Below are positions 9,871-12,104 of a stretch of DNA of 54,962 nucleotides, in pieces. This stretch comes from Gemmatimonadota bacterium. Lineage in GTDB: Bacteria > Gemmatimonadota > Gemmatimonadetes > Gemmatimonadales > Gemmatimonadaceae. The notes below the pieces were generated by a model. That model made no database searches. It saw only the letters and a program-made list of their open reading frames with translations, and was not told where the DNA came from. The DNA lies in assembly GCA_023249375.1 (NCBI GenBank), contig JAHFCT010000007.1:5152-60113 (forward strand), read 5' to 3'. The stretch's first letter is position 1. Each line of letters begins with the position of its first letter. Position numbers and translations under genes: made by a program.

Positions 9871-10578
9871 GTGCTCGTTCTTCTGGCAGATGACGACGCC
9901 TTCATGCGGCTGCTGCACGAGGAAGTGCTGCGGGCGTGCGGGCATGAGCCGATCGTGGCGAGCGATGGCATCGAGGCGTGGGCGACCTTCGAGCGCCAGA
10001 CCCCGCCGATGGTCATCCTTGACTGGCAGATGCCGGGGCTTGATGGCCTGGAAGTCTGCCGGCGCATCCGCGAACATCCGCAGGGCGATACGACCTTCGT
10101 GCTGGTCGTCACGGCCCGAGACGGCGCCGACGACCTCACGACGGTGCTCGACGCCGGCGCCGACGACTATCTGTCCAAACCGGTGACTCCCGACAACCTG
10201 CAGGCGCGGCTGCGCATCGCCGAACGCCGCATCGAGGTGTCGCGGGCCCGCAAGACGGCCGAAGAGGAGCTGCGCCGCGCGCGCTACATGGCCGGGATCG
10301 GCGAGACGACGCTGACCATTCAGCACGAGATCAACAACCCTCTGGCGGCGCTCATGACCAATGCCTCGCTCATTCAGAGCGGCGTCCTGAGCGACGAGGA
10401 AGTGAAGGAATCGGTTGCCGTGATCGAAGAGCAGGCGCGCCGCATCGCCGAGGTCGTGAAGCGCCTGCGGCAAATCCAGCGTGAACAGCGGGCGGCGTCG
10501 GTGGAGTACATGGGCGAGCAGCGCATGATCGACCTGCGCGGCGACGGCGGTCCCACGGCCGCGGGCCGACGGAAGTGA
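9871..10578 (+). CDS. Response-regulator receiver plus HisKA-like dimerisation domain, no ATPase domain
   Basis: 235 aa. Residues 1-115 are a CheY-like receiver: acidic triad ADDD, phosphoacceptor Asp51 in LDWQMPGLDG, Thr81 in the VTA segment and Lys103 in YLSKP. Residues about 125-205 form a two-helix DHp-like segment with an H-box, TIQHEINNPLAALMTNASL, placing a candidate phospho-histidine at 152. The protein then ends without N, G1 or G2 boxes, so it cannot bind ATP by itself. It may act as a phosphorelay intermediate or be phosphorylated by another kinase. GTG start at 9871. Its stop overlaps the next gene (nfo) by GTGA, implying translational coupling. Confidence 0.85.
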   Translation: MLVLLADDDAFMRLLHEEVLRACGHEPIVASDGIEAWATFERQTPPMVILDWQMPGLDGLEVCRRIREHPQGDTTFVLVVTARDGADDLTTVLDAGADDYLSKPVTPDNLQARLRIAERRIEVSRARKTAEEELRRARYMAGIGETTLTIQHEINNPLAALMTNASLIQSGVLSDEEVKESVAVIEEQARRIAEVVKRLRQIQREQRAASVEYMGEQRMIDLRGDGGPTAAGRRK

Positions 10579-11477
10579 GGCGGCTGCTCGGGTCGCACCC
10601 GAGCGACGCCGGCGGCATCGCCATGGCGGCGCGCCGGGCCGTGTCGGCGGGGATGACCACCCTGCAGGTCTTCACGGCGCCGCCCACGTACTATGGCGAC
10701 AAGGCGGGGATGAAGGCCGACAAGGCCGCCAAGTTCCACGCCGCGCTCTCCGAGGGCGGCATCAACCCCGGCGACGTGCTGGTGCACGCCGCGTACGTGC
10801 TGAACACCGCGTCGCCGGAGGAAGAGAAGGCGATGCGCGCACGCGCCGGGCTCACCAAGGAACTGGAGCGGACGCAGGCACTGGGCGCGCTCGGGTGTTG
10901 TTTTCATCCGGGTTCGGCGGTCACGAGCGATCCCGAACGGGCGGCCATCCAGGTGGGCGAGACGATTCGCCATGCGGTACAGAGCGTCGCGGGCACCGCG
11001 CGGGTGCTGGTGGAGAACACGGCCGGGGCCGGGAAGACGATGGGACGCACGGCCGAGGAGATTGCGCTGATGTTGGCGCAGGTGCCGTCCGAGTTTCGTC
11101 ATCGCACCGGGTACGGCCTCGATACCTGCCACCTCTTTGCGGCCGGCCACGACATTGCGTCGAGCGCGGACGCCCTGCGCGGCGTGCTTGATCGATTCGA
11201 GCAGGTGATTGGCGAACCGCCTGCCTTTTTCCATCTGAACGACAGCCAGCATCCGCTCGCGTCGAACAAGGACCGGCACGCGCTGCTGGGTGAAGGCGCG
11301 ATCGGCGCCGCGCCGTTCCAGTGGTTGCTCGCCGACCCGCGCGCTGCCGGCGTGCCCTGCATTCTCGAGACGCCGCACGATTATGACGAGGTGGCGGACG
11401 ACGCCTCCGACGCGGATACGGCCGACTTGCGGATGATGCAGCTGCTGCGCGCGTGGACCGGCGCCGGCACGCCGTAA
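10575..11477 (+). CDS. nfo: Endonuclease IV (AP endonuclease family 2)
   Basis: 300 aa TIM-barrel enzyme that cuts DNA 5' of abasic sites in base-excision repair. All nine zinc ligands of the family can be placed: His71 (LVHAAYVLN), His111 (CFHPGS), Glu147 (LVENTAG), Asp183 and His186 (GLDTCHLFAAGHD), His220 (FFHLND), Asp233 and His235 (NKDRHALLGEG) and Glu265 (ILETP). The N-terminus (LLGSHPSDAGG) matches the usual opening strand. The GTG start lies inside the stop of the receiver/DHp gene. A tail of 240 bp without a gene follows, up to the SWIB gene. Confidence 0.93.
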   Translation: MRRLLGSHPSDAGGIAMAARRAVSAGMTTLQVFTAPPTYYGDKAGMKADKAAKFHAALSEGGINPGDVLVHAAYVLNTASPEEEKAMRARAGLTKELERTQALGALGCCFHPGSAVTSDPERAAIQVGETIRHAVQSVAGTARVLVENTAGAGKTMGRTAEEIALMLAQVPSEFRHRTGYGLDTCHLFAAGHDIASSADALRGVLDRFEQVIGEPPAFFHLNDSQHPLASNKDRHALLGEGAIGAAPFQWLLADPRAAGVPCILETPHDYDEVADDASDADTADLRMMQLLRAWTGAGTP

Positions 11478-11484
11478 ACACGGT

Positions 11485-11639
11485 TTTCCCTCTGACAAAC
11501 TGATTTGCAACGGGCGTTGGGCGCTTCGTCGGAGCGCGCGGCGCCGGCGGCGCCGGGCGGGTTTCCCTCTGGAGATTGGCCGGCCGGGCCGAAAATTCGG
11601 CGATTTTCAGAGGGAAACGCTATTGCGCTCAGAGGGAAA
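11485..11639. promoter_or_regulatory. Four copies of CAGAGGGAAA upstream of the SWIB gene
   Basis: The 10-mer CAGAGGGAAA occurs four times between nfo and the SWIB gene. Two copies are on the minus strand (11485-11494 and 11562-11571) and two on the plus strand (11608-11617 and 11630-11639). The last two are 22 bp apart, two helical turns, so they would face the same side of DNA. The inward-facing arrangement suggests a protein-binding cluster controlling the downstream gene, or RNA hairpins formed by pairing opposite copies. I recognise no known regulator for this motif. Confidence 0.6.
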
Positions 11640-11719
11640 TACTTTACTTTCGAGGCGTCGGGGCGCGTGTTCCACCGGGGGAGCGCCGACCGCGAACATC
11701 CTTTCTAGGAGATACCAGA

Positions 11720-12058
11720 ATGGCTGCCAAGAAGAAGGCCGCAAAGAAGCCGGCGAAGAAGGCCGCGAAGAAGGCCGCGAAGAAGCCCGCCAAGAAGAAG
11801 ACCGCTCGCAAGCCGAATGCGGCGTTCATGAAGCCGGTTCAGCCTGATGCGATCCTCGCTGCCGTAGTCGGCGACAAGCCGCAGCCGCGCACCGAGATCA
11901 TGAAGAAGACCTGGGTGTACATCAAGAAGTACAACCTCCAGGACAAGAAGAACCGGCGCCAGATCAACGCCGACGACAAGCTCAAGGCGCTGTTCGGTGG
12001 CAAGGCCAACGTGACGATGTTTGAGATGACGAAGTACATCTTCAAGCACGCCAAGTAG
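11720..12058 (+). CDS. SWIB-domain protein with Lys/Ala-rich histone-H1-like tail
   Basis: 112 aa. Residues 1-35 are almost wholly Lys, Ala and Pro (repeated AAKK and PAKK), like the tails of bacterial histone-H1-like proteins, and should bind DNA non-specifically. Residues about 36-112 are a SWIB/MDM2-fold domain (AFMKPVQPDAILAAVVG ... INADDKLKALFGG ... FEMTKYIFKHAK), better known from eukaryotic SWI/SNF-associated proteins and chlamydial proteins. A nucleoid or chromatin role is inferred. AGGAGA at 11707-11712 lies 7 bases before the ATG, which fixes the start. The gene is a single transcription unit, with the CAGAGGGAAA cluster before it and a strong terminator after it. Confidence 0.9.
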   Translation: MAAKKKAAKKPAKKAAKKAAKKPAKKKTARKPNAAFMKPVQPDAILAAVVGDKPQPRTEIMKKTWVYIKKYNLQDKKNRRQINADDKLKALFGGKANVTMFEMTKYIFKHAK

Positions 12059-12076: not shown

Positions 12077-12104
12077 AAGGGGCGCCCCTCTGGGCGCCCC
12101 TTTT
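12077..12104 (+). terminator. Rho-independent terminator of the SWIB gene
   Basis: Perfect 9-bp GC stem, GGGGCGCCC (12079-12087) with GGGCGCCCC (12092-12100), a CTCT loop and a TTTT run at 12101-12104, beginning 19 bases after the stop codon. Confidence 0.92.

Follow-up and report, generated by a model that had tools for sequence, protein, structure and literature searches.

The window analysed here, a stretch of 54,962 nucleotides from a Gemmatimonadota bacterium, carries on its plus strand (11720-12058) a gene for a protein of 112 amino acids with a SWIB/MDM2 domain (Pfam PF02201, E=5.6e-26, 90.6 bits against a cut-off of 25). The N-terminal tail of this protein is rich in lysine and alanine and resembles histone H1, its closest solved structure is that of yeast UAF30 (7z0o_G, E=6.7e-12), and the named near relatives of its gene come from Gemmatimonadetes bins; a search of a phage collection for SWIB gave no match. 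A pattern scan places a terminator-like hairpin behind the gene (12077-12102, plus strand). Upstream lies nfo (10575-11477, plus strand; Pfam AP_endonuc_2), which encodes an endonuclease IV-like protein and serves here as context, being outside the operator described below. Because nfo stops at 11477 and the hairpin trails the SWIB gene, the latter forms a single-gene unit, and the motif cluster that is the subject of this study stands alone between that unit and nfo, as the original prediction held.

Stand-alone SWIB proteins are widespread in bacteria, and their recognition and control are poorly known (PMC6426960, PMC12445093). Two of them are, like the product of the window gene, small proteins built on a SWIB domain. 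Plastid SWIB-4 is a DNA-binding protein that compacts nucleoids and rescues an hns mutant of E. coli (reviewed in PMC4154389), and ChIP of the chlamydial (Waddlia) protein Wcw_0377 gives 1920 peaks along the genome (PMC6426960); neither a sequence preference nor an operator was found there for either protein. In Chlamydia trachomatis, a fusion of SWIB to topoisomerase I ties the domain to the control of DNA supercoiling (PMC12445093). None of the papers found establishes that a SWIB domain binds DNA in a sequence-specific manner.

Between nfo and the SWIB gene, the 10-mer CAGAGGGAAA occurs without mismatch at 11485-11494 and 11562-11571 on the minus strand and at 11608-11617 and 11630-11639 on the plus strand, and the starts of the two plus-strand copies are exactly 22 bp apart. 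The predicted number of copies, four with two on each strand, and the 22-bp separation of two of them are thereby borne out. The claim that they point inwards depends on how the motif is read: as CAGAGGGAAA, the left and right pairs diverge, and it is the complementary reading, TTTCCCTCTG, that faces inwards. When one mismatch is allowed, the window contains 6 sites against 1.5 expected, a number reached in none of 100 shuffles. Throughout the draft genome (3.81 Mb in 120 contigs) there are six exact copies, of which four belong to the cluster and two, a background level, lie outside it.

The repeated unit is longer than 10 bp and takes the form of an approximately dyad-symmetric 15-mer, TTTTC-NN-AGGGAAAA. 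Box 1, the outer site, covers 11484-11498 on the minus strand (TTGTCAGAGGGAAAA, centre 11491) and box 2 covers 11561-11575 on the same strand (TCTCCAGAGGGAAAC, centre 11568); boxes 3 and 4 lie on the plus strand, at 11604-11618 (TTTTCAGAGGGAAAC, centre 11611) and 11626-11640 (CGCTCAGAGGGAAAT, centre 11633). All four contain the exact 10-mer. The steps from centre to centre are 77, 43 and 22 bp, or about 7, 4 and 2 helical turns.

Conservation within the genus follows the boxes closely. Of the 11 genus members whose genomes were searched, a set that includes the window's own, 10 yielded a SWIB gene. The 22-bp pair formed by boxes 3 and 4 is exact in all 10 SWIB-bearing members, and its distance to the ATG is nearly constant among them. 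Box 2 departs from the motif by at most one mismatch in 9 of the 10, and an exact copy of box 1 is present in 6, near either -235 or -246 relative to the ATG, with roughly one helical turn between these alternative positions. The sequence that separates the outer boxes is unalignable across the genus, and the box cores are kept. Downstream of the array, the 5' leader of the SWIB mRNA (11655-11719 of the window; L165-L174) is strongly conserved in the genus and is predicted to form a hairpin; the leader in another genus of the family, g23, has a different predicted hairpin with apparent compensatory changes.

Because a scan of the window with the sigma70 consensus called no promoter, the promoter of the SWIB gene was read from conservation across genera, in which CTATTGCG and TTACTTT are retained upstream of SWIB. 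The predicted promoter is sigma70-like and occupies 11623-11650 on the plus strand, with TTGCGC (11623-11628) and TACTTT (11645-11650) on either side of a 16-bp spacer. Read in this way, box 4 falls inside the spacer and box 3 just 5' of the -35 element. A spacer box is also present in several genomes of family f2 and in L106, the box overlaps the -35 region in other genera (TTTCCCTATTG), and in a betaproteobacterium it lies inside TTGACA-17-CATTCT. Two further candidates were set aside. A Bacteroidetes-type promoter, TTG-N19-TAnnTTTG, is not claimed, as the sigma70-like reading fits as well, and a conserved RNA leader was rejected as the mechanism, given that the predicted hairpins differ among genera and that the boxes are 5' of the predicted start.

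The placement of the boxes bears on what they would do. With one site inside the spacer of the predicted promoter and a second one at its -35 element, the array is likely to repress transcription of the SWIB gene. Several loci have upstream boxes only (L031 and L108, for example), an arrangement that would suit an activator acting from phased boxes to recruit RNA polymerase to the SWIB promoter. However, boxes lie in the predicted spacer or over the -35 region in many genomes, which is more typical of repression, and we consider activation improbable.

The box extends well beyond the genus. In a relaxed form, the 15-bp TTTTC-NN-AGGGAAAA is found upstream of SWIB across Gemmatimonadota, and also 5' of SWIB in some Verrucomicrobia, Fibrobacteres, Omnitrophota, Betaproteobacteria and Deltaproteobacteria. 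A site was scored where at least 11 of the 13 defined bases matched within 250 bp upstream of SWIB. By this rule, sites occur in 90% of upstream regions from the genus and 43% of those from other Gemmatimonadota, scores that are partly circular because the consensus was built on some of these sequences, and in 20% of those from other phyla, which make a fairer test, although not a fully independent one, since some of their instances of the motif were already known before scoring. The same rule finds sites in about 1% of dinucleotide shuffles and in 0-0.4% of nearby DNA from the same loci. Fisher's test against nearby DNA gives 3e-35 for other Gemmatimonadota and 3e-9 for other phyla, values in which related genomes enter as non-independent observations. 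One of the eight other-phylum hits (L111) is without the AGGG core and is probably due to chance. Many SWIB genes are free of boxes, including all 11 of the plasmid genes examined, and the two chlamydial loci sampled (L115, L191) yielded no convincing box. The boxed SWIB proteins L072-L075, from among the other-phylum loci L070-L075, are hardly larger than the SWIB domain itself, with the basic Lys/Ala tail missing wholly or for the most part.

The motif is also nearly exclusive to SWIB genes. Among 298 Gemmatimonadota genomes, TTYYCNKAGGGRAAA has 102 matches, 45 of which, in 35 genomes, are located less than 500 bp upstream of a SWIB start. In clades of the same order or closer, a hand count gives 75 matches versus 18 for a reversed control, whereas more distant clades, most of them without SWIB, give 27 versus 33; enrichment of the motif is thus confined to clades in which SWIB is common. 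Boxed SWIB genes of other phyla have unrelated neighbours (ABC transporter, HemN-like, cellulase, TPM, NifU and other genes), and no regulator gene common to these loci was found among them. Thus, the operator follows the SWIB gene. In genome G241, nfo is present, SWIB was not found and no box is left at nfo. Together, the concentration of the 10-mer at the cluster and its conservation upstream of SWIB orthologues support the proposal that it marks an operator for this gene.

A wider regulon was sought among box matches away from SWIB, and these proved to be mostly intragenic and at about the control frequency, except for those before gyrB in genus g23. Several isolated cases deserve mention. 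Genome G241 has a near-perfect box, TTTTCAGAGGGAAAA, on contig C270 near 1992-2006 (L265), flanked by a terminator-like hairpin and a tRNA-Phe-like sequence, and in G004, where no SWIB was detected, a box lies 5' of a phage-type integrase (L263). The Fibrobacteres genome behind L077 (G314) has 37 box matches with one mismatch, versus 5 for the reversed control genome-wide; no regulon is claimed for it because most of the matches read sit in coding sequence. In the Opitutaceae genome G317 (L417-L420), several intergenic regions contain TTTTCAGAGGCAAAA or TTTTCAGAGGTAAAA, which could represent either a repeat or a variant box that marks a regulon.

The spacing of the boxes is governed by the helical repeat. 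Neighbouring boxes are separated, centre to centre, by 21-22, 31-33, 42-45, 54-57, 65-67, 76-77, 87-89 or about 99 bp. With each spacing taken once per genus, a period of 10.95 bp gives a resultant R of 0.82 for 44 same-strand pairs and of 0.85 for 22 opposite-strand pairs, and the phases of both classes lie within 0.3 bp of zero. The corresponding Rayleigh values, 1e-13 and 1.5e-7, are only approximate because genera share ancestry. Repeated spacing on one face of the DNA, proposed originally from the window, thus holds for these genus-level pairs across many genera. In a pair scan of the 298 genomes, phased spacing was seen in 27 of 27 pairs at SWIB versus 4 of 21 elsewhere. The equal phase of the two orientations argues that the bound protein reads each site as a dyad, in keeping with the TTTTC and GAAAA arms, and the site would accordingly be occupied as a dyad from a single face of the DNA.

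These results also bear on the possibility that the cluster arose by chance, is the relic of a mobile repeat, or serves nfo as a terminator or RNA hairpin. In a transcript the inverted copies would be able to pair, and box 1 starts right after the nfo stop codon. Yet the cores are conserved amid unalignable flanks, the phasing holds in both orientations, the inverted copies are not followed by a run of T, and the tie to SWIB persists in unrelated gene neighbourhoods; an origin of this kind is very improbable indeed. We instead hold, with high confidence from the comparison of sequences, that the array in the window is a real, conserved and helically phased operator array for the SWIB gene.

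A second target of the box appears in one lineage. Within genus g23, which belongs to the same family, 9 of 18 regions upstream of gyrB (L283-L302) carry the box, on one strand or the other, against 0 of 384 control pieces; no box precedes gyrB in the window's genus or in 19 further genomes. One g23 genome, G071, has a perfect box before gyrB, and neither SWIB nor a SWIB-linked nfo orthologue was detected in it. This box without SWIB may reflect a missing piece of the draft assembly, loss of the gene in the recent past, or another binder, and it is the main evidence against SWIB as the protein that reads the box. The box before gyrB, taken with the chlamydial SWIB-topoisomerase I fusion (PMC12445093), hints at a connection with DNA topology, although the chlamydial case is a protein fusion and not a common operator.

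The persistence of the G071 box would be readily accommodated if the boxes were the operator of a separate, dedicated dimeric transcription factor, encoded elsewhere, that would repress SWIB and, in one lineage, act on gyrB as well, so co-tuning genes for chromatin and topology. A dyad with arms one turn apart resembles the site of an ordinary dimeric repressor, and some boxed SWIB proteins are without the basic tail. Against such a factor, the box is enriched only in SWIB-rich clades (the 75 versus 18 matches within the order, set against 27 versus 33 farther away), the boxed loci of other phyla have no regulator gene in common, and we found no second conserved target fit to be the factor's own gene. 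We regard a separate factor as possible, at a chance clearly below even.

Arrays of sites at the gene of a DNA-binding protein have well-known counterparts. H-NS and Fis, both nucleoid-associated proteins, are autoregulated, and the promoters of their own genes carry arrays of sites. The SWIB locus is like theirs in that the gene of a DNA-packaging-type protein carries multiple sites, some over its predicted promoter and others 5' of it. In contrast to them, it involves an unrelated protein family and site, and its box is specific and strictly phased, with SWIB only a putative binder. The PhoB and OmpR boxes are phased operator arrays of dimeric regulators, built from 11-bp units with 22-bp spacing, and the SWIB boxes share with them whole-turn repeats on one face of the DNA that permit cooperative binding. 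The likeness drawn here is one of spacing, and the unit of the SWIB box differs in behaving as a dyad whose orientation is irrelevant.

The presence of the same phased motif before SWIB genes in many relatives and in some distant phyla suggests self-control. In the mechanism we propose, a dimer would bind each 15-mer, in which roughly one helical turn separates the TTTTC arm from the GAAAA arm, and the whole-turn spacing would align bound dimers on one DNA face and so allow them to bind cooperatively. Occupied sites in the spacer and at the -35 element would block RNA polymerase, and SWIB, a basic nucleoid-type protein, would set its own level by binding its own operator. SWIB as the reader is easiest to understand because gene and operator travel together across phyla, and boxed SWIB proteins such as L073, which are without the basic tail, are a counterpoint. 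As the binder of its own operator, SWIB is our best single guess, with roughly an even chance of being correct. We place the full reading, a repressing operator array of the SWIB gene with SWIB itself as the likeliest binder, at the midpoint between doubt and belief.

No prior description of such an operator was found in the searchable literature (open-licence papers), and a text search with the 10-mer returned, among the matches listed, animal viruses, human genetics and the like, with no bacterial operator. A broader claim, to which we give slightly less than an even chance, is that the bacterial SWIB domain acts as a sequence-specific, cooperative DNA-binding autorepressor whose phased dyad operator has moved between phyla with the gene and has been recruited to gyrB in one lineage. 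If so, this recruitment would couple a chromatin-like protein to DNA supercoiling, and the box before gyrB offers a possible link of SWIB proteins to DNA topology. The compact, specific operator would, in turn, provide a probe for sequence reading by SWIB, a promoter for reporter assays and a marker by which the regulon can be traced computationally.
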